A stretch of 64,000 bases of DNA from Candidatus Saccharimonadota bacterium (GTDB lineage: Bacteria > Patescibacteriota > Saccharimonadia > Saccharimonadales > UBA4665). Positions 4,357-59,568 of this stretch are shown in pieces. Positions within the stretch are counted from its first letter, which is position 1, and every line of letters starts with the position of its first letter. The notes under the pieces are model-generated. The model ran no database searches and was not told the DNA's origin. It was given only the letters and a program-made list of their open reading frames with translations. The translations under genes and the position numbers were made by a program. Location of the stretch: contig JAICKC010000001.1 of assembly GCA_025928155.1 (NCBI GenBank), forward strand, positions 1 through 64,000. Direction: 5' to 3'.

Positions 4357-5859
4357 ATGGCAAAGTTACCTGCGAATCGGTTCCCCGCTTTATCACTTTC
4401 TCGAATTGCGACGGTACTTGTTGTGGTGTTGTTTGCCGGCATTGGTACATATATTTTGGGCGTGAGTCATGCCTCCGGCAACGCCACCCTGTCGCTCTCA
4501 CCGAGTAACTCTACCGTTGGTTTAGGTTCCACGCTTACTGTGACGATTATCGAAAACAGCGTCACCGTACCGACGAACGCTGTAGAAGCTGACCTCACCT
4601 ATGACCAGACCAAGCTGCAGTTTGTGAGCATCGATACTACTGCCGCCACTACGCCGTTCAGTATTACGGCGAACGCTACGGGCGGCAACGGTACGGTAAA
4701 TATCGCAGTGGCATCCTCGGCCGCACAGACTGGCTCACAGACAGTTGCCAAGGTCACCTTTACGGCAATTGGGACCGGCAGCGCGCCGGTGGCATTTGCT
4801 AACTCCTCGTCAATTATTCAGTCCAGTGATAGTACTGACATAACGGGTACTATGACGGGTGCCACCTATACGGTCGCCGACCAGGCGGCACCATCAGTGC
4901 CGGCGGGTCTTGCGGCCCCGACGCGCACCGCTACTACTATTGCATTAAGCTGGACCGCCGCCACAGATAACGTCGGCGTAACCGGCTACAAGATTTACCG
5001 TGGCGGTACCCAAGTCGGTACTAGCAGTACTACGAACTATACTGACAGTAATCTCACGCCCAGCAATAACTACTCGTACACCGTGGCGGCATACGACGCG
5101 GCAGGTAATACCTCCGCCCAGTCCAGTACGCTGGCTACTAGTACAACGCCGGACACTGCGGCTCCGAGCGTGCCGTCTGGTTTGTTGCTAAGCACCCACA
5201 CCCTGACGAGTATCAAACTCACCTGGACCGCCGCCACAGATAACGTCGGCGTAACCGGCTACAAGATTTACCGGAACGGCACGCAGGTCGCCACCTCACA
5301 GGCCACCAACTACGACGACACTGGTTTGGCTCCGGGCGTCAGCTACAACTACACCGTGGCCGCATATGATGCTGCCGGCAACACCTCGGCGCAGTCAGGC
5401 GTCAGCTCATTCAGCACCCTCGCCGACACTACTGCTCCTAGTGTGCCAGCTGGCCTCGCATCACCAAGTCAGACGGCTACCAGTATCACTCTGAGTTGGA
5501 CCGCTTCAACCGACGATGTCGCGGTTACTGGCTATAAAGTCTACCGCAACGGCACGATCCTAGTTACGACCACCAACACCACTTACACTGACACTGGCCT
5601 CACACCCGGCACTAACTACAGCTACACAGTGGTAGCCTACGATGGGACCGGTAACAACTCGGCGCAGTCAGCTGTCAAATCGGTGAGCACCACCGTGGTA
5701 CAAGGTGACGTGAACGGCGACGGGCACGTGAATATATCAGATCTGAGCATTCTGGCGTCGAGCTGGCAGAGCCGTACGGACTTGCGGGCGGACTTTAACC
5801 ACGACGGTGTGGTAGCGATTGCAGACCTAAGCATAATGGCAGCAAACTGGGGAAAATAG
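4357..5859 (+). CDS. Surface protein: cohesin-like domain, three fibronectin type III domains, dockerin
   Basis: A 500-residue exported protein. Order: N-terminal anchor helix (about 14-36, ending GIGTYILGVSHA), a cohesin-like beta-sandwich (about 41-172), three Fn3 domains (about 178-265, 268-355, 358-445), and a C-terminal type I dockerin (448-500). The dockerin has two calcium loops: DVNGDGHVNISD and the degenerate DFNHDGVVAIAD. Fn3 domains 1 and 2 share a 51-nt identical stretch (4950-5000 and 5223-5273). The next gene, 1 nt away, carries another cohesin-like domain, so dockerin-cohesin pairing between the two products, or head-to-tail self-assembly, is plausible (inference). Promoter at 4297-4325. 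Confidence 0.88.
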   Translation: MAKLPANRFPALSLSRIATVLVVVLFAGIGTYILGVSHASGNATLSLSPSNSTVGLGSTLTVTIIENSVTVPTNAVEADLTYDQTKLQFVSIDTTAATTPFSITANATGGNGTVNIAVASSAAQTGSQTVAKVTFTAIGTGSAPVAFANSSSIIQSSDSTDITGTMTGATYTVADQAAPSVPAGLAAPTRTATTIALSWTAATDNVGVTGYKIYRGGTQVGTSSTTNYTDSNLTPSNNYSYTVAAYDAAGNTSAQSSTLATSTTPDTAAPSVPSGLLLSTHTLTSIKLTWTAATDNVGVTGYKIYRNGTQVATSQATNYDDTGLAPGVSYNYTVAAYDAAGNTSAQSGVSSFSTLADTTAPSVPAGLASPSQTATSITLSWTASTDDVAVTGYKVYRNGTILVTTTNTTYTDTGLTPGTNYSYTVVAYDGTGNNSAQSAVKSVSTTVVQGDVNGDGHVNISDLSILASSWQSRTDLRADFNHDGVVAIADLSIMAANWGK

Positions 5860-5860
5860 T

Positions 5861-7027
5861 GTGAAGAAACTCGGAAGCATTTTTGGATTACTTGTTAGCA
5901 TGATAGCGTTAGTCGTGGCACCGACTGCCATGGCGGCCGCTGCCCCAGCTTTGTATTTTGAACAGGCCGACGTTTCAGTGGTTGGCGGCAACGTCAGCTT
6001 ACCGGTGCATGTCAACGCCGCCGGCTCGTCACTCGATACGGTACAGATTGTCGTCACCTTCCCGGCTGATAAGCTTACTTTTGTAGGCCTTGATAAATCG
6101 GGCTCGGGCTTTACAGCCTTTGTGCCGGCTGTTCCTACGGATACGAATGGCCAGGTTACATTTGGTGCCGCCAGCTTTTCTACCAAGGCCAAGCCGGTCG
6201 TAGGTGACGTGCTGGTCGGCACATTACTCTTTACCGCCAAAGCTACGAGTGGTGTAGGAGAAGTGAGCCTCAGCGGTTCGCAGGCCCTGCGCAGCGGCGT
6301 GACGCTTACCGGTACGACCACTAGCGTGGCTACGCTACACTTTGGCGCCGGAAGTACCACCGGCGGCGGTCTCGGCCTCGGCAATGTGGCCGCCACTGAT
6401 ATAACTGTCAACAACACTACAATACGCTGGCACACCGATGTTCCTGCCACCAGTGGCGTGGACTATGGCCAAACAAGCTCTTATGGTGCGAGCGTGGGCT
6501 CGCAGGATCTAGTTACTGACCACCGGGTAAAGATTGGCTCAGTACTACCCGGCGGTACCAAGATACACTACCGGGTCTCTTCGGTGGCGGTTGGCGGCGC
6601 GTATCAGGCGTCAGAAGACAAAGCATTCACCACACTCGGCTATACTGTGGCGATAACGGCACGCGACAAGAGCGGACAGCCACTGAGCGGTGCCAGCGTG
6701 CAAGTGGTAGGCGGCCACAAAGCGAAAGCGAATACGAGCGGTGTAGCGATCATAACGAATGTCGGTCCGGGTGCCCAAAAAGTCGTCATTAATGGCGGCA
6801 AGTCGCAGAGCATCCTGGTAAAAAGTGAGGTGGGCGCGGCAGCTACCAAAGTCCAGCAATTTACGCTTGTCGGTGAGCCCGCGGCATTTCCCATTATTTC
6901 CCTTGTTCTGGCGGTGCTCGTGGCTGCAGCGGTGATAGTGGCGCTCGTGATGCTTATGAAACGCCCTAGCGCTCAGCCAAAGCCGCCTATGGCGCCCACG
7001 ACGCCTGCCTCAACGTTTCATATGTAA
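5861..7027 (+). CDS. Membrane-anchored cohesin-domain surface protein
   Basis: A 388-residue protein starting with GTG one base after the preceding stop; GGGG in the end of that gene lies 9 nt upstream, so translation is probably coupled. Order: signal peptide (1-26, ending AMAAAA), cohesin-like domain (about 28-160), a fibronectin-like domain (about 175-260), a carboxypeptidase-regulatory-like beta domain (about 262-335) and a C-terminal membrane helix (about 344-366) followed by a Pro-rich cytoplasmic tail. It probably displays the cohesin on the outer face of the membrane and could hold the dockerin protein of the upstream gene. Confidence 0.85.
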   Translation: MKKLGSIFGLLVSMIALVVAPTAMAAAAPALYFEQADVSVVGGNVSLPVHVNAAGSSLDTVQIVVTFPADKLTFVGLDKSGSGFTAFVPAVPTDTNGQVTFGAASFSTKAKPVVGDVLVGTLLFTAKATSGVGEVSLSGSQALRSGVTLTGTTTSVATLHFGAGSTTGGGLGLGNVAATDITVNNTTIRWHTDVPATSGVDYGQTSSYGASVGSQDLVTDHRVKIGSVLPGGTKIHYRVSSVAVGGAYQASEDKAFTTLGYTVAITARDKSGQPLSGASVQVVGGHKAKANTSGVAIITNVGPGAQKVVINGGKSQSILVKSEVGAAATKVQQFTLVGEPAAFPIISLVLAVLVAAAVIVALVMLMKRPSAQPKPPMAPTTPASTFHM

Positions 7028-7602: not shown

Positions 7603-8655
7603 CTAGTGGCGCGTGACGGTAAATGACTGGCCGTCCGAGCCAAGCGCAGACGGCACGGCAAGCGGCTGTTGCGCCGCCGACACCAGGGTGACGGGCTGAG
7701 CGTTACCACTTAGGATGGTCATGCTGTTGCCGTTGTCCGTTGCACCGCCGCCAGTGAACGTCACAGGTGCAAAGACATCGAACGCTACCAGATGGCCAAA
7801 AACATTGCTTGGGTCTTCTTCAATCCACTCAACCGACGAATACGACGAAGTATATGCTAAGGCGGTAGTGAATGAATTGCCGGTCGTGTTGTCGGTTATG
7901 GTAACGTTCCAGTGGTCTGCCGATGTTTCGGCAATGCTCGCCTGCATACTGTCGTCTGGTGAGACTGGTAGGCTGGTAATGGTGTGTGCACTCTGCGGCA
8001 GTAGCTCGTAAAAAGCGAAGGAGGTTTGTTTGCCGCTGGTTGACACGCTGTCTATCGTACCTACCTGGATGAGGTCGTCGCTAGTGACGCCACCGATGCC
8101 GATCCAGGCAGTGTCGGCCGATGTCCTACCGGCTACACCGGTGGCATTTGGTACGTTCCATGAGCCGGAAACCGAGGTGTAGTGGCCGGTGGTTGCCAGG
8201 TACCCTGCCCAGTTGGTGGACAGGTAGCTGGTGGTTGTGGCTGGTGTCGAACCCTGAGTGGAAGTGTTGCCGTCGGTTCCTGTAGTGTCAGTGGTAACGG
8301 GCGGCGGTATGGCATCCACTGGGGTGAGGCCATTAACACTGGCGTTCGGGTCGGGTCTGACCACAGGTGCTGGAGTGGCGCTATGAGGCACTACAGCGAG
8401 CGTTGTCGGTTTAGGCGGTGGGACAGCCGGAATTGACGTCGGCAGGGTTGTCTGCGCCGTGGTTGACGTCGGTGGGGTGCTTGGCGTAGCTGCTACGGAT
8501 TTACGGTTCGAAGCGTTTTGCGTTTGAATGGACGATGTGTGGGGTGGGGTCGAAGCAGCATAGCGTGCACCACCGATCAGTATGCCTGTAACGAGTAAGT
8601 ACGCGAGCAATCGCGGCACACTCAAAACTACTCGGGGGGCTTTATGCTTCATCAT
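7603..8655 (-). CDS. G1-family (eqolisin-like) glutamic peptidase, membrane-anchored
   Basis: A 350-residue protein with an N-terminal membrane helix (about 12-30), a long Pro/Thr/Ser-rich stalk (about 35-142) and a C-terminal domain matching peptidase family G1. Family landmarks: STNWAGY (146-152), SVSGSWNVP, DTAWIGIGG, then DDLIQVGT with the presumed catalytic Q197, and SSVEWIEEDP with the catalytic-glutamate motif at 276-280. Known G1 enzymes are acid-stable and pepstatin-insensitive, mostly from fungi with some bacteria and archaea. The stalk would hold it on the cell surface. It has no operon partner and converges on 7110-7586. Confidence 0.82.
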   Translation of the reverse strand: MMKHKAPRVVLSVPRLLAYLLVTGILIGGARYAASTPPHTSSIQTQNASNRKSVAATPSTPPTSTTAQTTLPTSIPAVPPPKPTTLAVVPHSATPAPVVRPDPNASVNGLTPVDAIPPPVTTDTTGTDGNTSTQGSTPATTTSYLSTNWAGYLATTGHYTSVSGSWNVPNATGVAGRTSADTAWIGIGGVTSDDLIQVGTIDSVSTSGKQTSFAFYELLPQSAHTITSLPVSPDDSMQASIAETSADHWNVTITDNTTGNSFTTALAYTSSYSSVEWIEEDPSNVFGHLVAFDVFAPVTFTGGGATDNGNSMTILSGNAQPVTLVSAAQQPLAVPSALGSDGQSFTVTRH

Positions 8656-9400: not shown

Positions 9401-10336
9401 CTAAGGGTTCAGTGTAGTGATCTGCAGGTCGGTGAAGTCGAAATTGGTGTAGTCGCCGCGTATACCGACGTTGCCGGCAGCGGTAATGGGTGTATAGGAG
9501 GCCGACCGGTAGTGCCCTGGCGTGGTACAGCTTGGCGACCAAGCAGGGTTGGTACCACCCCGGTCGGTACCACTGGCGATCGGCTGGGTAGCGCTCGCGG
9601 CAGTATCGTAAAGGTTGATAGTTACGGACTGGTTAGCATTGGTCTGGATGGTTATGGTGTACTTGCTCCAGACGCCGGGCGTAAAATCGTGCCGGGCGTA
9701 GCTGCCCAGCACGAAGTAGGTGCCGTCGTCGCTGCCGCCGCACGGCACTTTACGCTTGATAACCACTTGGCCGTCTGCGCGATTCAAGCTGACGTAATAG
9801 AGATTGAACGGGTTCTGGTATCTCAGCCAGGCGTGGATACCATACCAGCAGGTGTCGTCTGTATTGCAGCTAGTATTATGAATGTCGATATTCTGTTTGA
9901 GCGAAAGCGACACCTTGATATTGCCCGCGAAACTCTTAACGGTGTTTAGACGAAACACGTCTGAGTCGGTACAGTTGGTACTTAGAGCATTCGGGCCGTC
10001 GCAGGTATCGGGATTGCCGGTCCAGAAGACGTTGCCGTGGGCAAACAGTGAGCCGCTCGTCATGTCCCAGTCAGCTGAAATTACGGCATGGCCGTTGCCG
10101 TGGTTGAAGTGAGCAAACTCATTGGTGATGAGGCCATTTGTTGCGGGTGCGGTGTACGAAGCGAGTATAGCTGAAGTGGTGGGTGGCGGCGTGGCCTTGT
10201 GTTGGCTGGAGTGGTTGCGAGTTTGGGCTGCGGGCTTTGGTCGGTGGTGTATTGAGCTGCCCAGAAGGTAATACAGTAGCAACCCGCATACTACAATAAC
10301 AGCGCCTGCCGTTATAGCCCACCAACGACGCTTCAT
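9401..10336 (-). CDS. Membrane-anchored lectin/glucanase-like (ConA-fold) protein of the EPS operon
   Basis: A 311-residue protein with a membrane helix at about 7-26, a His/Pro/Thr-rich linker (to about 55) and a beta-rich domain with the feel of a concanavalin-like sandwich (segments such as WYGIHAWLRYQNPFNLYYVS and GVWSKYTITIQTNANQ). Six cysteines probably form disulfides outside the cell. Its ATG overlaps the stop of the deacetylase gene as ATGA, making it the third gene of the operon. A role in binding or retaining the secreted polysaccharide is an inference. A catalytic glutamate signature of GH16 is not evident. Confidence 0.7.
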   Translation of the reverse strand: MKRRWWAITAGAVIVVCGLLLYYLLGSSIHHRPKPAAQTRNHSSQHKATPPPTTSAILASYTAPATNGLITNEFAHFNHGNGHAVISADWDMTSGSLFAHGNVFWTGNPDTCDGPNALSTNCTDSDVFRLNTVKSFAGNIKVSLSLKQNIDIHNTSCNTDDTCWYGIHAWLRYQNPFNLYYVSLNRADGQVVIKRKVPCGGSDDGTYFVLGSYARHDFTPGVWSKYTITIQTNANQSVTINLYDTAASATQPIASGTDRGGTNPAWSPSCTTPGHYRSASYTPITAAGNVGIRGDYTNFDFTDLQITTLNP

Positions 10337-12009
10337 GAGGCTACAACACTAATGTCCTGTATGGTAAGGCTTGAAGGGTGTGTGGCGTCGTAGACCGAAA
10401 AGCCTATGCCACCACTTGGTGGCATAGCTGGATCGGTGACTTCGGTCAGCACCTCTCCATTCAGCAGACACTGGATAGTGTGGCCGTGCATGCGCACGCC
10501 AACGGTTTGCGGCTGGTTGACGGCTAAGCCGTCAAGGTCGCTCTCTTGCAGCGTAGTGAACGCACTACCCATGCTGCGGGTAACCGAGAAGTAATTGGCA
10601 CCGAAGTAGCAACCAATGCGATAATCGGCACCTTGTAGGCGCGCCAGCAGTCCGTAGCTGCTCCCTTGATTAAGCGTAACGCGGGCGGTCATAGTGTAGT
10701 CGCTCCAGCCGCTGCTGCCATCGAGTACGGCGCCGGCGCCAGTCTTATCCGTACCACTTGAGCCAATTGTGAGTGTTCCATTTTGTACATCCCCTTTACC
10801 CCAGGCGTACTCCCAGCCGCTGTTGGTCGCTAAGCGATCGTTGTACGGTAGTGGCTTAGCGTCGCCTTGGCCCAAAAATGCTACGAGCCCTTGTCCGTTG
10901 CTCCACAATCCTTGGGTGAGCTGGATGCGATACGCATAGAACTGGTTACTATTATAGTACTCTTGGCTCCGGTCGCGGCCCGGGTAGTACAACATCATGG
11001 CGGCTTTGAACAATCGCTTGGTAGCGGCGGTCAGGACGTTCGGCGCGTTGTGGTAGTTGCTGGAGTCGTTCTCGCCGATGTCGGCGAACGGGAATGCGAA
11101 CAGCGTTGCGGGCTTGCCGGTAAATTGCTCGACCTCGCGCTTGGCGGTCGCCATATCGTTGTAAACGCGGGCGGCGTACTCGGCATCGGTTTCCATGCGG
11201 TGCGAGGCAGACAACCAGAGCTTGTTGGGGTAGAACTCACCCTTCGTGCCATTACTGCTAATGGCGTAGTAGCTGTGGCCGATGTCAGTGTGGGGTTCCA
11301 AATCCCAGTGACCGCTACGCTGCATGGCGTGCAGCTCGATAGCCGATAGGTAGTAGTGTGAACCGGCGAAGTCTTCTATGTTGTATTTCGTGATAACGAA
11401 TTCTGTCGCCCGGAAGCCAAGCGCTGACAACACCGGGTCAACTGGGTAATAACTATCTTTGGTGCCATCGTCAAAAGTAATAAATACCGACTTTGCGGGC
11501 AGCCGTTTCTTGCCCGCGATGAAGTTGGCATAGTCATCGGCTGAGACAGTAGTGTAGCCGGCTTTTTTGAGCGCAAACATCTGGTGCTTGAAGTCGCCAG
11601 GTGTCACATTATATACATCCTTGTCGGTGGCGACGCGGTGATAGAGCAATACCGGCACGGATGTGGCGTAGCCGGCTGGCATCGGTGCAGCCGATACGCG
11701 GTCGGTAAACATGGCATCGCGTACAGCATCGGGACGCGATTCACCGATATAGCGGTTGTAGTCATAGCGGACTCTGTACGTTTCGAAGAAATTGCCGATA
11801 GTTCTGGTGTTATCGAGATTGTAGCTGTAGAGCCAATAGGCGCCGCCGTATATCAGGCCGCAAACGGCCAGTGACAGTGCGACGTAAGCAGCACGGTGCA
11901 CGTACATACGCGTGCGTAAACCGTGCGGCCGCCGGGTGTACAGCCAGCGTGCGCCAAGCTGCAGGTAGGACGGATGGTGGGCGCCAGACGGTACATTCCA
12001 GAGCTTCAT
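10333..12009 (-). CDS. Polysaccharide deacetylase (CE4, PgaB/IcaB-type) with C-terminal lectin-like domain
   Basis: A 558-residue protein. Order: membrane helix (about 39-61), CE4/NodB domain (about 117-370), ConA-like beta domain (about 395-558). In the CE4 domain VPVLLYHRV opens the fold, TFDDG gives the metal/base aspartates D180/D181, and LEPHTDIGHS gives H240 and H245 spaced H-x4-H. That spacing is known from PgaB and IcaB rather than the H-x3-H of chitin deacetylases. The ATG at 12009 overlaps the stop of the glycosyltransferase gene (ATGA). It probably removes acetyl groups from a poly-N-acetylglucosamine-like polymer outside the membrane. Confidence 0.85.
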   Translation of the reverse strand: MKLWNVPSGAHHPSYLQLGARWLYTRRPHGLRTRMYVHRAAYVALSLAVCGLIYGGAYWLYSYNLDNTRTIGNFFETYRVRYDYNRYIGESRPDAVRDAMFTDRVSAAPMPAGYATSVPVLLYHRVATDKDVYNVTPGDFKHQMFALKKAGYTTVSADDYANFIAGKKRLPAKSVFITFDDGTKDSYYPVDPVLSALGFRATEFVITKYNIEDFAGSHYYLSAIELHAMQRSGHWDLEPHTDIGHSYYAISSNGTKGEFYPNKLWLSASHRMETDAEYAARVYNDMATAKREVEQFTGKPATLFAFPFADIGENDSSNYHNAPNVLTAATKRLFKAAMMLYYPGRDRSQEYYNSNQFYAYRIQLTQGLWSNGQGLVAFLGQGDAKPLPYNDRLATNSGWEYAWGKGDVQNGTLTIGSSGTDKTGAGAVLDGSSGWSDYTMTARVTLNQGSSYGLLARLQGADYRIGCYFGANYFSVTRSMGSAFTTLQESDLDGLAVNQPQTVGVRMHGHTIQCLLNGEVLTEVTDPAMPPSGGIGFSVYDATHPSSLTIQDISVVAS

Positions 12010-13391
12010 CGGGTGACCCACTTGCGGTTTTGGATAGTCGCTATGGCATAGAAAAATACAAAAGACAGGAAGATGCTGTTGAACACAGTCCAGAGGAATA
12101 GGTATGGCCAATATTTATTGCTGCGCGAGGAAAATTTGTAAAATACAGTGATGATGGCGGCCAGCAGCAATGCTCCGAACAGATAGTACAGCGGCAGAAT
12201 GTGGCGGACGGCCGGAGAGTACAGCATAGCGCGGACGGCGACGAAGGGCGTGAGCATGCTGACAAGGGTCAGCGGAAAGAAATACGTAAAGGCAATGAAC
12301 GGCCGTTTGCGCCAAATAAATTTACTGGCGAAATAGGCGTTGATGACCCAGCTTTTTTTCCAGCGTGTCTGCTGCTTGAGGAACTGGCGGAGATTGTCGG
12401 GGCAAATGGTATAGGCCTGCACTAAGTCGGTGTAGATGGTCTTGTGGTCAGTCTTGATGAGCCAGTTGGTCAGCGCCCGGTCATCCCCCCAGGTTACTGG
12501 TTGGCCCAGGAAGCGCTCGCCAAGCCAATCATCCATGATAGGCAGGACCGCGCTCTTGCGGTAAGCGGACGAGCAGCCACTGCAACAGAAGACTGACATA
12601 AAGACCGACTCGGCTGCCTTCAGGATGCGGAATGACATAAAGTAGTACGCTGCCTGCATCTTAGTGAGCAGGTTTTGGTCAGCGTTGCTTGGGTCAGCGT
12701 GGGCACAGACGGCGGCGATTTCGGGGTGCGCGAACGGCTTGATGAGGTTGCGGAAGGTGCTCGGTTCGATGTAGCTGTCGCTGTCGAGTTGGATAACGAT
12801 TTCGCCGCGAGCCCGGCGGAAGCCTTCAACCATGCCCGGGCGCTTGCCGCGATTGACTTTCCACGAAACTATCGTCAGGCGCTTCTCGTATTCCTTTTTA
12901 AGTGTACGCACTATGTCTTCGGTGCCGTCGGTGCCACCATCGTTAATGAAGACGACGTCGAGCTTATCGGCCGGATAATCGGCCGCGAAACACATACGTA
13001 TGGTGTTTTCGATGGCCTCCTCCTCGTTCTTACATGGAATCACGAAGGTTACGAGTGGCTCGTACGCCTCCTCTTGTCTTGCTGCCAGGATGTTGTCGGC
13101 GTGTCGCATGACTTTGTTGATGGAGTTGCGGTACAACGTGGCGGCCAGTACGCGGGTGAGCTCAAAAGTAGTGACGAATACCGAATACGCAATCAGCCAC
13201 TGGTTCTCGTGGTTGGCGTAAAGCGTTTTGGCTTTGATGGCGGCTAGGATGAGCAGAAGTGTGATGCCGACTAGGAGGAGGAAACCGTAATAGCTGAAAG
13301 CACTCAAGAAGTTTCGGAAGCGCTCAAAACGACGCAATACGGCATCGTCTGCCGGCTCACTAAGCACATTCTCTGCTGCACCTTGCTGCAC
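12006..13391 (-). CDS. Processive membrane glycosyltransferase GT2 (PgaC/IcaA/NodC-like)
   Basis: A 461-residue polysaccharide synthase. Two N-terminal helices (about 33-53, 66-88), a GT-A domain with VIPCKNEEE (118-125), DGGTDGT, D203/D205 in QLDSDS, GDDRAL (302-307) and the processivity motif QQTRW (340-344), then several C-terminal helices. These features define the cellulose/chitin/hyaluronan/PNAG synthase group. GTG start with AGGAG 7 nt upstream. The translationally overlapping deacetylase downstream points to an N-acetylated hexosamine polymer, hence PNAG- or chitin-like rather than cellulose (inference). Confidence 0.87.
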   Translation of the reverse strand: MQQGAAENVLSEPADDAVLRRFERFRNFLSAFSYYGFLLLVGITLLLILAAIKAKTLYANHENQWLIAYSVFVTTFELTRVLAATLYRNSINKVMRHADNILAARQEEAYEPLVTFVIPCKNEEEAIENTIRMCFAADYPADKLDVVFINDGGTDGTEDIVRTLKKEYEKRLTIVSWKVNRGKRPGMVEGFRRARGEIVIQLDSDSYIEPSTFRNLIKPFAHPEIAAVCAHADPSNADQNLLTKMQAAYYFMSFRILKAAESVFMSVFCCSGCSSAYRKSAVLPIMDDWLGERFLGQPVTWGDDRALTNWLIKTDHKTIYTDLVQAYTICPDNLRQFLKQQTRWKKSWVINAYFASKFIWRKRPFIAFTYFFPLTLVSMLTPFVAVRAMLYSPAVRHILPLYYLFGALLLAAIITVFYKFSSRSNKYWPYLFLWTVFNSIFLSFVFFYAIATIQNRKWVTR

Positions 13392-54225: not shown

Positions 54226-55911
54226 TTACTGTTCGAGCGCGGTAGCGGCGAGCGTGGTCAGGGTCGTGTGGTTCTTCTGTCCGTTCAAGACAGTACTGAG
54301 CGGCTGCAGGTCGATTGGCTGATGCTTATTGATCGTGTTGATACCGAAGACGACGCGGTCGCTCGGTTGTGTTTTGTAGCCAAGTCCATTGCTCTCGTTG
54401 CCAGCAAAGAGGACACGGGTAGCTCCACTGGTCACCAGCTGGTAGTTGACGTTTACAAAATGGTTATTGCTGATGTCTGCGCCGTTGGTGCTGTCGTATA
54501 GATACACCCCACGTTTGCCGCCGTAGAAGGTGTTGTTTTCAACGTAATTCTGGATCGAGCCGGCATTAATACGAACTTGGCTGCCGCGAGGATTGTAACC
54601 ACGGTTATTCTGCACTGTGTTGAGGCTCGAGCCGTATATGACGAAATTGTCCTGGTTACCAATCGCTATGTTGTTTTTGAATATGTTGTAGTCTGAGTTG
54701 TCGTGCAGCATGAAGCCGTGATATTTGTTGTCGATGGAGATGTTGTTTTCGATGATGTTATAGTCGCAGCGCTTGGAGACAATGAAGCCATGTTTACCGT
54801 TGGCGACGAAGCGGTTGTACTCAATCGTAGCATTGTTGCTGTCGTCATGGGGGTCGAGGCCGTAGATGCGGTTGGCGGTAAACAGGTTGCTGGTCCACAT
54901 CATACCTTGCGCACCGAAGGTGAAAGCTCCAATGTTGTTATGGCTGAACGTACTGTTCTGTACCCAGCCGGTCACGATGTTCTCCCCGAACGAACCGGTC
55001 GCGATCCGCCAAGATACACCGTAGACACCGCCTTGGGCTGCAAATGGTACCTTGGCAATGACATCCTTGCTCCTAATCTGCTCGATAGTCATACCGAGAT
55101 ATGAGGCGGTAGCGTTGAGCATGTCCATGCGGCCATTGTCATACGCACGGACAAAACTGCGGCCATCTGAAATGTTAGTGTCAGGCTGACCGGTGGTCGG
55201 GTCGTAGCTGCTGATGTGTACGCCGTTAAAGAGTGTCTCAGCGTTTTGAAAGGTCAATGTCGTGATGCTGTAGTTCGGCTGGCTTCGCAGGTAGAGAGTG
55301 CTGACCGTGTCGCTGGTGACGTCGACTTGGATATTGTCCTGGATGTACAGTGGGATATTAATCATGTACGTTTTGGGCCCCAGCTGCGTAATGCCGTTGT
55401 ATGGCTGCACCATCCTCATGAGATCGGGAATGGTTAGATGTGCTTCCGGGTTTACGAATCGGTTGTTAACGTAGATGACACCCTGTCTTTCAGTGACGGT
55501 GGCGGCGGAAGCAGTGTCGGCGCTTGCCGGAAATGGAGCGAGCGGATGTTCGACCGGGGGTACTTTAATGGTGGTGCCCCACACCACCTGGCCTGGGTTG
55601 AGCTGCTGCAGTTCCGCAAGGCTTACACTGAAGTGCGCGGCAGCCCAGGCGAGGTCTTGCCCTTCCTGTAGCTTGTAGTACGCGAACTTGGTGCCGTACG
55701 TCGGCCGAGCTGCTGTCATGGTTGCTTCGGCTGATTGCCAGCCGTCGGTCACCAGGCGAGCGTTACCGCGATTAGCTAGCTGGGTCATGAGCTCAGGCCC
55801 GAAAGTGAGGTAGAGGGTGGCAACGCCGATAACGAGCGGTATGACGACAACGAGCGCTCGTATTGGCGGCCTAAGGTGTTTGGTAGGGTGTGTCGTCGAT
55901 CGCCTTTTCAT
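54226..55911 (-). CDS. AlgG-like C5-epimerase (parallel beta-helix) with N-terminal LysM-like segment
   Basis: A 561-residue exported protein: membrane helix (about 17-37), a LysM-like segment (79-118: YKLQEGQDLAWAAAHFSVSL...LNPGQVVWGTTIKVP), then a right-handed parallel beta-helix (about 200-510) of N-rich coils. GLDPHDDSNN (351-360) contains the DPHD motif, which in mannuronan C5-epimerase AlgG forms the catalytic centre; HGFIVSKRCDYNII follows as in AlgG. It probably converts uronate residues in a polymer outside the membrane. The ATG overlaps the synthase stop (ATGA). Confidence 0.83.
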   Translation of the reverse strand: MKRRSTTHPTKHLRPPIRALVVVIPLVIGVATLYLTFGPELMTQLANRGNARLVTDGWQSAEATMTAARPTYGTKFAYYKLQEGQDLAWAAAHFSVSLAELQQLNPGQVVWGTTIKVPPVEHPLAPFPASADTASAATVTERQGVIYVNNRFVNPEAHLTIPDLMRMVQPYNGITQLGPKTYMINIPLYIQDNIQVDVTSDTVSTLYLRSQPNYSITTLTFQNAETLFNGVHISSYDPTTGQPDTNISDGRSFVRAYDNGRMDMLNATASYLGMTIEQIRSKDVIAKVPFAAQGGVYGVSWRIATGSFGENIVTGWVQNSTFSHNNIGAFTFGAQGMMWTSNLFTANRIYGLDPHDDSNNATIEYNRFVANGKHGFIVSKRCDYNIIENNISIDNKYHGFMLHDNSDYNIFKNNIAIGNQDNFVIYGSSLNTVQNNRGYNPRGSQVRINAGSIQNYVENNTFYGGKRGVYLYDSTNGADISNNHFVNVNYQLVTSGATRVLFAGNESNGLGYKTQPSDRVVFGINTINKHQPIDLQPLSTVLNGQKNHTTLTTLAATALEQ

Positions 55912-57515
55912 TGCCTGCTCCCAGTTGGTTGGATGTAGTACACCAGAGTTTGTCCGACGAGTATCCTCGAAGGACTTGTAATACCGTTCAGTTTTTTCAG
56001 CGTCGTTTCATCCATGCCAAGTTGCGCGGCGATTCCGGTCAGCGTGTCTCCCTGTTGGATAGTGTAAGTCTTTACGTCGCTCGCAAAGATAGCATCGGGC
56101 AAGATCCTCGGCTGCGTCGGTACGTTGGCGGTTAAGGATGTCGATACGTCAAACTCGCCAGGACGTACTGGCGTCGGTATTGGTATGACGACGGCCGCCT
56201 GCTTGTTTGCCTGGTCGATGAAGCGAGCGGTCAAGAAAAAGATGGCAGCAATGCCGAGTACACCGACCAGTACAGTGGCCCAGCGGCGGATGAGACGGCG
56301 GCGCATGCGACTTTTGTGCCACCGTGTTGCCCAGGAGTTCTCAAGGATGGTAGCGAGAGCATACACCTTCACGATGGCGTTTGTGTAGGTATATACGACC
56401 CAGGCTGGCAGATAAATCAGACGCTTTGGGTAGTGTCTGAAGTAGCTGAATAGGCGAACGGTACGGCTGATGAGCCACCAACAGACCAATACACTTACCA
56501 GTATCCAGCGGTGCTGGATGGCGCCGATTACTGCGGCGGTGGGGCCGAGAAGCATAAAGAATGGCTGCACAAATCTATCAAGCATGAAGTAGGCCAGTAC
56601 CGGATAGCGAAAGACCCAGCCGCGCCGGATGGCCCGCAAGTCAGCTCGCCAAGAGTTGCGTGTCCAGCGCAGGCGCTGCTTCATAAATTTCTTGAAATGG
56701 CCGAGACCCTGGGTGTAGACAACGGTATTCGGGGAGTAGCCGACTTTCCAGCCCTGCTCTAAGATGAGGTGCGACAAACGCTTGTCGTCGCCGGAAATAG
56801 CGCGAGCATTCATAAAGAATTCATGCATGAGGTCGTGCACGTTGTCATAGTGTTCGTTGATGAGCGCTTCGCGGCGATAAATAGCGGTGCGTCCAGACAG
56901 GGTGTTGTAGGCCTTGCCGAGGCCGAGCAGGAATGGCACCTCCTCGCGGTAGCGATTCCAGAGGAGCATGTCGAAGAGAACGTTGCTGATCGTATCCGGA
57001 TTGCTGACGCGCTGAGGTACGGTGACGCCGCCCATCTTTGGGTCGGTGAAGTACGGCAGCGTACTCTCTCGTACGTTGTCTGCCCAGAGAGTATCGGAGT
57101 CGACTAGCGCGACTAAATCACCGGTGGCCCGTTCAATACCGTCGCAAAGCGCGGCACGTTTGCCGGGTTTGGGGGTGACGATCAGGCGACACTTGACATC
57201 TTTGCGCGGTACGTAGTGCTTTTCAAAATTGAGGATGTGGTGTGTGTTGCTCTTGTCGATAACGGCGACAATTTCGTCGACGCCGTTTTTAATCCAAGAT
57301 GTAAGTGCCTCCTCAAATAGCTGTTCGTCTTCGTTATAGACCGGCGTAACGATACTTGTCGTGAGTTTTTGCGTTTCGGGGTCAATGGGTTGCTTGGCGA
57401 ACTGTGCTGCCTCACGGCGATATAGTGTAGCGCCCAGCTGACGTACGAGCCAGTAGGACCAACGCCATAAACCAATGAACGAGAGTGGGATGTACAGGAG
57501 GAGAGTTTGGAGCAT
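55908..57515 (-). CDS. Processive polysaccharide synthase GT2 with C-terminal LysM (Alg8/HasA-like)
   Basis: A 535-residue membrane enzyme: N-terminal helix, GT-A domain with VTPVYNEDE (56-64), TPKPGKRAAL, D139/D141 in ALVDSDT, SGDDKRL (241-247) and QRLRW (280-284), then about five helices, a further helix (415-430) and an extracellular LysM domain (483-527, YTIQQGDTLTGIAAQLG). The motif set fits hyaluronan/alginate-type synthases. The LysM could tie the synthase to peptidoglycan, a fusion not found in classical Alg8. It starts 2 nt after the dehydrogenase stop. Confidence 0.87.
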   Translation of the reverse strand: MLQTLLLYIPLSFIGLWRWSYWLVRQLGATLYRREAAQFAKQPIDPETQKLTTSIVTPVYNEDEQLFEEALTSWIKNGVDEIVAVIDKSNTHHILNFEKHYVPRKDVKCRLIVTPKPGKRAALCDGIERATGDLVALVDSDTLWADNVRESTLPYFTDPKMGGVTVPQRVSNPDTISNVLFDMLLWNRYREEVPFLLGLGKAYNTLSGRTAIYRREALINEHYDNVHDLMHEFFMNARAISGDDKRLSHLILEQGWKVGYSPNTVVYTQGLGHFKKFMKQRLRWTRNSWRADLRAIRRGWVFRYPVLAYFMLDRFVQPFFMLLGPTAAVIGAIQHRWILVSVLVCWWLISRTVRLFSYFRHYPKRLIYLPAWVVYTYTNAIVKVYALATILENSWATRWHKSRMRRRLIRRWATVLVGVLGIAAIFFLTARFIDQANKQAAVVIPIPTPVRPGEFDVSTSLTANVPTQPRILPDAIFASDVKTYTIQQGDTLTGIAAQLGMDETTLKKLNGITSPSRILVGQTLVYYIQPTGSRQ

Positions 57516-57517
57516 AA

Positions 57518-58420
57518 CTAGGCTGCTTCTACGGTAGCAAGGTGGTTGATACTGACTTTCTGGTTTTGGCCCAGGAGTTTCTCGTGGCGGAGGTTTTCGG
57601 TAATGACACTGCGGAGTATACCGAAGTCAAAGCCGTTTGTCTCTCCCCACTCAAGTAGTGCGCGAGTGTCTTTTGGCAGGCATGAGCCGTCAAACGGGCC
57701 ATAGTCACGAATGCCATATACCGGATTCCACATGCCTTCACAGCTTTCGGCGGTGGCGCGGAAGACTTTGTCGGCGTCCCATCCCTTCTCTTTGATAGCA
57801 ATGCGCATCTCGTTGAAGAAGGCGATTTTAACAGCATTGTACACATTGTGTACATACTTCTGGATCTCAGCTTCTTCGATAGAGCAGTGCTCGATAGGGG
57901 CGTTAAAAGGCCGGTATAGCTTGTCCACGGTTTTGCCGGAGCGTTCATCGAGTTCGCCGATAAGTACAAACCACGGGCGCTCGAAGTCCTGGGCTGCAGT
58001 TACTTCACGGAGATATTCGGGCTGCATGACGACACCGAAGCCCTTGCCGGCCTTTTTGCCGGACAATTTTTCAACGTACTTGATCATCTCACGGGTGGTT
58101 TGCGGTGGCACCGTTGAGCGGATAACCATGACATGGTATGCCTTGTGTAGCTTGAGACGGTTAGCAAAGTCGGTTATGGCTGACTTTAGAATATCGAGCT
58201 GAATGTGTTTTGCCTTGGTGGGCGTCGGCACACAAAACAGCGTGACGTCCGTGTCTATTTTCGTATACTCTGAGGCTACTTCAGCTCGATAACCTGCTTC
58301 GCGCAGCTTTGCCACCTTGGCTTCGTCAACATCTACAAATGTGACCTCATTTTTATGCTTGCTTAACCCACGCCCTGTTGCTTCACCTACAAATCCAGCA
58401 CCAACCACTGCTACTTTCAC
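57518..58420 (-). CDS. Nucleotide-sugar dehydrogenase (UDP-glucose/GDP-mannose type), short form
   Basis: A 300-residue enzyme. Rossmann motif GAGFVGEATG (7-16), FCVPTPT (62-68), the sugar-side segment QPEYLREVTAAQDFERP, VKIAFFNE (197-204) and the catalytic cysteine C247 in GSCLPKDTRA. It should oxidise an NDP-hexose to the uronate, supplying the synthase downstream. The C-terminal nucleotide-binding domain of about 120 residues found in AlgD and Ugd is missing; the gene ends cleanly 2 nt before the synthase. GTG start with AGGAGG upstream. Confidence 0.88.
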   Translation of the reverse strand: MKVAVVGAGFVGEATGRGLSKHKNEVTFVDVDEAKVAKLREAGYRAEVASEYTKIDTDVTLFCVPTPTKAKHIQLDILKSAITDFANRLKLHKAYHVMVIRSTVPPQTTREMIKYVEKLSGKKAGKGFGVVMQPEYLREVTAAQDFERPWFVLIGELDERSGKTVDKLYRPFNAPIEHCSIEEAEIQKYVHNVYNAVKIAFFNEMRIAIKEKGWDADKVFRATAESCEGMWNPVYGIRDYGPFDGSCLPKDTRALLEWGETNGFDFGILRSVITENLRHEKLLGQNQKVSINHLATVEAA

Positions 58421-58593
58421 AGAACCTCCTGCATCTTCGACCGTTACGGAAATACGGCATTATCTCTAGTATGTATCTGGTAAAAGTAATACAAGATGGC
58501 AATTTATGCAATAAGGTAGCCTACTTTGTGTTATAAATTACAATTTTCTGACATTGTTGGGGAGCGTTCGGTGATGGGCTAGAATAGATGGGT

Positions 58594-59568
58594 ATGCAGG
58601 AATTTTTCGGTAAGGTGGTGCGTAAGGTAAGACTACCCGGCTGGCCGGGTAACAAGTTCTTTGCGCTGCTCGCACGGCGCCCCAATCTTAGGCTAGCGGT
58701 GCTCGGTACGCTGCTTGCTTGCGTGGTGGCAATCCTAGTGTTTGCGTACCTTTCCCTTTTTACCTACCACCCATCAACCGGGAGTAAGGAGTTAAATCCA
58801 GCTGGAACAAAGCGGTCGGCGTCCGTTAGCCTGAAGTCGAATACTATTCAAACTCAGCCCCGATCCAATCCACCTAGTACCGCGAGTAAGCCGCCGTCGT
58901 CGAGTACCGCAAACTTTCCTGCAGATGTGCTTAGCCTGACCCAGTGGAAGCTGACGCTACCAACCGGGCCGAGTCATGATGCAACCGAGATCCAACAGCC
59001 GCAGCTGGCCAGTTTTGAACTTGCACCGTACTTCCAGCTCAATGCCGCGAAAGATGGCGTTCAGTTCGAGGCCCCAGTCAACGGTTCAACAACCTCAGGA
59101 TCGCAGTACCCGCGGTCCGAACTCCGAGAGATGACGGATAACGGTCGGCAGGAAGCCAGCTGGTCGACGACAGACGGTACAAATACTATGACGGTCCGCG
59201 AGGCGATAACCCACCTGCCTGCCTCTCGATCTCAGGTGGTTGCTGCACAAATCCATGGATCGTCGGCGTACGTTATGCTTATTCGCCTGAACGGTTCTGA
59301 TCTGTTTGTCGAGGGGGACAACGGTAAGAATATGGGTAACCTGGACACGAACTACCGGCTCGGTACGGCGTACACTGTCCAGATCACGGCTATGAACGGG
59401 CGGATCATTGTTTCGTACAATGGAATAGAAAAAGCTAATTTTCCCAACGAGACTTCAGGGGATTACTTCAAGGCGGGCTGCTATACGCAGGCTAATATGA
59501 GTAATGGCGGAAGTGCGAGCGACTACGGGCAGGTCATTGTATATGGTCTGAGTGTGCAGCATTCGTGA
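58594..59568 (+). CDS. Alginate lyase, polysaccharide lyase family 7, membrane-anchored
   Basis: A 324-residue protein with a membrane helix (about 35-56), a Ser/Pro/Thr linker (to about 108) and a PL7 domain. PL7 motifs: YPRSELREM (172-180), QIH (219-221) and YFKAGCYTQAN (291-301), which carry the catalytic Arg, Gln, His and Tyr. It cleaves mannuronate/guluronate polymers by beta-elimination. Divergent from the polymer operon. TAGAAT (58580-58585) ends 8 nt before this ATG, making it a better start than the ATG at 58588. Confidence 0.9.
   Translation: MQEFFGKVVRKVRLPGWPGNKFFALLARRPNLRLAVLGTLLACVVAILVFAYLSLFTYHPSTGSKELNPAGTKRSASVSLKSNTIQTQPRSNPPSTASKPPSSSTANFPADVLSLTQWKLTLPTGPSHDATEIQQPQLASFELAPYFQLNAAKDGVQFEAPVNGSTTSGSQYPRSELREMTDNGRQEASWSTTDGTNTMTVREAITHLPASRSQVVAAQIHGSSAYVMLIRLNGSDLFVEGDNGKNMGNLDTNYRLGTAYTVQITAMNGRIIVSYNGIEKANFPNETSGDYFKAGCYTQANMSNGGSASDYGQVIVYGLSVQHS

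Follow-up and report, generated by a model that had tools for sequence, protein, structure and literature searches.

We analysed a stretch of 64,000 nucleotides, hereafter the window, that forms positions 1 to 64,000 of contig JAICKC010000001.1 from a Candidatus Saccharimonadota bacterium, a member of the Candidate Phyla Radiation (CPR) whose assembled genome (33 contigs, 1.30 Mb) is 98% complete. The subject of this work is a group of three minus-strand genes of the window. The first (12006-13391, GTG start) encodes a 461-aa processive glycosyltransferase of family 2 (GT2), assigned to the polysaccharide synthases of the hyaluronan synthase (HAS)/NodC class by Pfam, NCBIfam, PDB, tree and motifs. 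It is followed by the gene of a 558-aa polysaccharide N-deacetylase (10333-12009, ATG start), a PgaB-type member of carbohydrate esterase family 4 (CE4) with a C-terminal lectin-like domain. The third gene (9401-10336) encodes a 311-aa protein that, from an alignment of 24 homologues and an AlphaFold (AF2) model, consists of an N-terminal transmembrane segment, a Pro/Thr-rich linker and a lectin-like beta-sandwich. As a preliminary description of this DNA had reported, the genes overlap by ATGA at both junctions: the synthase stop and the deacetylase start share positions 12006-12009, and the deacetylase stop and the start of the third gene share 10333-10336. Promoter and terminator scans gave no signal above that of shuffled sequences.

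The same gene set recurs elsewhere. A related-locus search with a single protein returned nothing, whereas an alignment of three sequences recovered 70 loci. In this alignment-based scan, the CE4 protein with its tail was present at 43 loci, mostly from CPR bacteria, with a few from DPANN archaea (Woesearchaeota and Diapherotrites) and from single metagenome-assembled genomes (MAGs) labelled Actinomycetota and Chloroflexota; binning errors could touch single labels of this kind, not the overall pattern. The GT2 gene was found at 41 of the 43 loci, directly before the CE4 gene in 36 of these 41, and the third gene came next after the deacetylase at 23 loci. As a control, none of 27 further CE4 matches lacking the tail had this GT2 nearby. 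Because the set recurs at 43 loci, against 0 of the 27 tail-less relatives, its composition is more than chance. The earlier view of a polysaccharide operon is supported; the three genes probably form a single operon for a surface polysaccharide made by a synthase-dependent route (probability about 0.6). Among the 93 genomes of the GTDB family to which the window belongs, only the window genome was found to have the CE4 protein, so that the distribution is patchy.

The synthase matches PF00535 (96.6 bits) and has a hydrophobic segment towards the N-terminus and three more towards the C-terminus. It had been described as similar to the synthases of poly-N-acetylglucosamine (PNAG), an assignment that the comparisons contradict. 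Its NCBIfam score was higher with NodC (TIGR04242, 157 bits) than with PgaC/IcaA (112.5 bits), each well under its cut-off (550 and 422.3 bits, respectively), and its best PDB relatives were hyaluronan synthases (99.8 bits). Grouping with cellulose synthases, the outcome named in the preliminary description as fatal to its proposal, was not seen: a cellulose synthase reached just 23 bits in the PDB search, and this assignment was ruled out. The phylogeny proposed there as a check, against PgaC, IcaA, NodC and HAS, went against the PNAG label. In this tree of 52 rows, PgaC and IcaA form a branch (100/99) outside a group (97/87) that unites NodC and HAS with every cassette synthase. The window GT2 lies within an 18-row CPR clade (100/100), and HAS pairs with NodC (99/91); the window protein is thus not inside the HAS clade, which has long branches and is represented by just two sequences, read from PDB alignments. 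Several long reference branches (BcsA, HAS and one Thermomicrobium row) leave the inner branching order unsure, but the motifs agree with the split from PgaC/IcaA. The window synthase carries DSD, GDDRALTN and QQTRW, and the forms DSD, G[DE]DR-LT and QQ-RW are common to the window, cassette, HAS and NodC sequences, a GT2 subfamily C excepted; PgaC and IcaA have DGD or DAD, TED (of the TEDIDIS type) and QR-RW (QRLRW). The residues D203/D205 and QQTRW (340-344) noticed previously are indeed in place, and an alignment of five sequences shows no variation at D203, S204, D205, Q340, Q341, R343 and W344. Judged from its sequence, the synthase is of the hyaluronan/chitin type, that is, of the HAS/NodC class, and a PNAG-type synthase was ruled out by tree and motifs.

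The deacetylase, by comparison, was correctly described as PgaB/IcaB-like. It matches PF01522 (Polysacc_deac_1) with 57 bits against a cut-off of 23.1, the Pfam stretch forming the core of the catalytic domain (11071-11508, minus strand) with the base D180 and the metal ligands D181, H240 and H245. The PgaB model TIGR03938 gave 78.7 bits, under its full-length equivalog cut-off of 321.9, and the best PDB relatives were BpsB and PgaB. Each of the five active-site residues has its single counterpart: H55, D114, D115, H184 and H189 of the Escherichia coli PgaB align with H124, D180, D181, H240 and H245 of the window enzyme (558-aa numbering), H124 lying just upstream of the Pfam stretch. In PgaB, His55, Asp114 and Asp115 are active-site residues and H189 is part of the metal pocket (PMC7112194). 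The first four are kept in all 28 cassette enzymes and the last, at the H245 position, in 26 of 28. Loss of the metal site, which the preliminary description had held would speak against it, is not what the residue mapping shows, and the H-x4-H motif (240/245) that it placed after TFDDG reads HTDIGH; PgaB and IcaB likewise have H-x4-H, whereas NodB has H-x3-H. The PgaB-type hairpin is also kept (NKLWLSASHRMETDAEY in the window enzyme, NRAYFTDHARYETAAEY in PgaB) and is absent from the aligned IcaB. A NodB-type CE4 was ruled out by a 100/99 tree split in which the NodB rows were only about one third filled. Residues ~38-61 form a probable N-terminal membrane anchor, identified by eye; a simple hydropathy scan gives no call. 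The tail (10393-10824, minus strand) exceeds the cut-off of PF06439 (30.5 versus 26.8 bits), a family known for a concanavalin A (ConA)-like fold, and bears out the added domain of this kind proposed before; among the 28 members, four have tails matching PF06439 at E <= 0.01.

These features could mean that the operon makes genuine PNAG (beta-1,6-linked N-acetylglucosamine, GlcNAc) with a divergent PgaC, as first proposed. Like pgaABCD and icaADBC, it pairs a membrane GT2 with a CE4 enzyme identical in its active-site residues and H-x4-H spacing, and this enzyme is most like PgaB/BpsB and retains the PgaB hairpin. It differs in its synthase, which comes from another GT2 branch on the HAS/NodC side by tree and motifs, and in having lectin-like domains instead of the usual partners: no GH153 domain and no PgaD/IcaD-, PgaA- or IcaC-like gene was found within the window operon, whose genes overlap and enclose no additional open reading frame and whose deacetylase tail is PF06439, no genome-wide search for partners having been made. 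We therefore regard a PNAG system as improbable. Divergent PgaB clades with domain fusions have been described in a paper whose main text, on a word search, named none of CPR, Saccharibacteria and archaea (PMC7112194).

Even less probable, in our judgement, is that no exopolysaccharide is made at all, the CE4 enzyme and the lectins remodelling the cell's own peptidoglycan or host glycans and the GT2 serving to make no more than a glycolipid or a short primer. CE4 enzymes do include peptidoglycan deacetylases, and CPR cells are usually attached to a host, but such a role is at odds with the strict pairing of the deacetylase with a GT2 of the processive type (41 of 43 loci) and with its affinity to PgaB/IcaB rather than NodB.

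The third protein has its transmembrane segment at about residues 6-26 and its beta-sandwich at residues 126-311 (9404-9961, minus strand). No Pfam family matched it, and 23 members of its family gave just scattered single weak matches; a PDB sequence search yielded no convincing match either. Modelling with an alignment of 23 sequences (model m8e349a4714f6) produced a usable core, compared with a pLDDT of 33 for the single-sequence model; the mean pLDDT was 61, higher in the 126-311 core. This core superimposed on the CBM66 domain 4azz with Z 13.7 (root-mean-square deviation 2.5 A over 135 residues) and on galectins with Z ~12. In the model, then, the protein has a ConA/galectin-like lectin sandwich fold, which together with the N-terminal transmembrane segment agrees with the lectin-like membrane protein proposed previously, and the gene defines a lectin-like family that has no Pfam entry. 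In a profile comparison, the match between the third protein and the CE4 tail was weak (27.5% probability), and for this reason we do not claim common descent. The closest sequence relative comes from a Micromonosporaceae MAG (91 bits, the next reaching 30), suggestive of exchange with Actinobacteria. In that MAG (GC 0.68; locus L067, 1-3669), the homologue lies with a CE4-tail protein and a 531-aa protein that has no Pfam match. The window genome itself holds a second homologue (L045, 5641-6798; 31% identity), possibly a lipoprotein, and no polysaccharide genes were seen among the neighbouring open reading frames.

Which polymer is made can be approached through the genes around related cassettes. 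By eye, genes for the supply of UDP-GlcNAc are recognisable in three cassettes: a GlmS gene directly follows the CE4 gene in L049, and GlmU-like genes are present in L048 and L081. At 12 of the 30 loci with enough sequence, the gene directly upstream of the GT2 gene encodes a nucleotide-sugar dehydrogenase, and nine of these 12 enzymes carry the GGHC signature of UDP-HexNAc dehydrogenases, which is reported to be invariant in UDP-ManNAc dehydrogenases (PMC4794789). Four dehydrogenases compared with NCBIfam models, one of them from contig C5 of the window genome, scored better with the UDP-HexNAc dehydrogenase model than with that for UDP-Glc. Lyases of families acting on uronic-acid polymers occur in three cassettes, all with the upstream dehydrogenase: a heparinase II/III is fused to the CE4 domain in L046 and stands between GT2 and CE4 in L078, and a PL14 domain is fused to CE4 in L089. 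The supply genes, dehydrogenases and lyases thus indicate that the family handles an amino-sugar polymer partly containing uronic acid. The product of the cassette family is probably N-deacetylated, with uronic acid in some members, and probably resembles a glycosaminoglycan or chitosan more than PNAG; the uronic-acid enzymes of the sister cassettes point to a glycosaminoglycan-like polymer, which the preliminary description had not considered. One of these loci (L046, 839-7756), in another Patescibacteria genome, is a tight cluster of a UDP-HexNAc-type dehydrogenase, a GT2, the heparinase II/III-CE4 fusion and a third-protein homologue.

A close precedent for such synthesis is the hasAB pair of Class I hyaluronan synthases, with which the cassette shares DSD, GDDR-LTN and QQTRW, a self-contained membrane GT2 and, in 12 of 30 relatives, the adjacent dehydrogenase. 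It differs in its added deacetylase and in that most of the relatives' dehydrogenases are of the UDP-HexNAc and not the UDP-Glc type; next to the window GT2 there is no gene for UDP-GlcA supply. For the window cassette itself, which no dehydrogenase adjoins, the chance of a uronate-containing product falls somewhat short of even.

Several observations weigh against the glycosaminoglycan-like interpretation or the mechanism built on it. The lyase cassettes L046, L078 and L089 have GT2 enzymes of the other subfamily, C (FATDR, not GDDR). The two dehydrogenases of the window genome lie away from the cassette: the first is on contig C5, next to a second HAS/NodC-like synthase, and the other at 57.5-58.4 kb of the window, beside an alginate-like cluster. 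GlmS and full-length GlmU did not exceed their curated cut-offs in the 98% complete genome; a MurA-like gene was found, which makes the use of UDP-GlcNAc by this organism probable. The mean pLDDT of the third-protein model is just 61, and the deacetylase tail may not be only a binding module, because its Pfam family is named for an enzyme. Finally, GH18 enzymes occur in L070, as a fusion with CE4 in L077, and beside the GT2 and CE4 genes of Paenibacillus, which suggests GlcNAc-GlcNAc linkages instead.

The last observation, the missing dehydrogenase and the top rank of NodC among the NCBIfam models (157 bits) would all fit a beta-1,4-GlcNAc homopolymer, chitin-like and converted by the CE4 enzyme to chitosan, as a polymeric version of NodC/NodB. 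Set beside the NodC/NodB chitooligosaccharide system, that score is far below the 550 bits of the NodC cut-off, and the operon has no nodA. Against the homopolymer, the deacetylase is PgaB-type and not NodB-type, and a dehydrogenase accompanies 12 of the 30 sister cassettes, including L077, the nearest relative of the window synthase in the tree. We consider this alternative unlikely. The Paenibacillus cellulositrophicus plasmid cluster (CE4, GT2, CE4, GH18) resembles the window cassette in its GT2 (39.5% identity over 335 aa) and adjacent CE4 gene; it differs in that no lectin tail or third gene was identified, a GH18 standing instead, and in that its second CE4 enzyme has FEDG for FDDG.

How might a polymer of either composition be made and held? 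HAS-type catalytic motifs are present in a single membrane GT2, and Class I HAS forms its own membrane channel (PMC10939387). In the mechanism that we propose, with the same probability as the operon, the GT2 would polymerise UDP-GlcNAc, some members adding a uronic-acid donor (UDP-HexNAcA or UDP-GlcA), and extrude the chain through a channel of its own in the manner of Class I HAS; because that channel would be self-made, a PgaD/IcaD-like partner would not be needed. Outside the membrane, the anchored PgaB-type enzyme would strip N-acetyl groups while its lectin-like tail holds the chain, and the third protein, anchored by its transmembrane segment, would retain the polymer on the cell. A partly de-N-acetylated coat would result, cationic, or zwitterionic if uronate is present, and plausibly serving adhesion. 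With a chance likewise somewhat short of even, CPR and DPANN might share a dedicated glycosaminoglycan-like surface polymer system of a HAS-class synthase using UDP-GlcNAc and UDP-uronate, an N-deacetylase, optional heparinase-like or PL14 trimming and an unnamed family of membrane-anchored lectins, in which the N-deacetylase step would parallel the one with which heparan sulphate maturation begins.

Other loci of the genome are of related interest. On contig C5 (L047, 6465-9306), the HAS/NodC-like synthase and the UDP-HexNAc-type dehydrogenase that directly follows it form a hasAB-like pair, also kept in a relative of the same genus (G029; L039, 463-3023). The window holds a second exopolysaccharide cluster, alginate-like by eye (54226-59568), with a beta-helix epimerase-like protein bearing a LysM-like segment (54226-55911), a GT2 with a LysM-like C-terminus (55908-57515), the nucleotide-sugar dehydrogenase (57518-58420) and a PL7 alginate-lyase-like protein (58588-59568). 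A peptidase of family A4, a glutamic peptidase (7603-8655; PF01828, 107 bits), adjoins the operon on the same strand. Two neighbouring secreted proteins are encoded at 4357-7027, the first containing a type I dockerin and three fn3 domains, the second with a C-terminal transmembrane segment and possibly a cohesin-like N-terminus; in this CPR bacterium they may form a cohesin-dockerin pair.

In the cassette, synthesis of the hyaluronan/NodC type and deacetylation of the PNAG type, each known from other systems, come together in one gene set. We found no prior description of this combination, or of the cassette in CPR or DPANN, in the literature searched, which covered few subscription papers and no preprints and is weak evidence on this point. 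The cells of CPR bacteria and DPANN archaea are ultra-small, most of them depend on other cells, and to our knowledge their surface chemistry is largely uncharted. Shared by many CPR lineages and by some archaea, the cassette puts specific genes to a surface polymer with a possible role in attachment.

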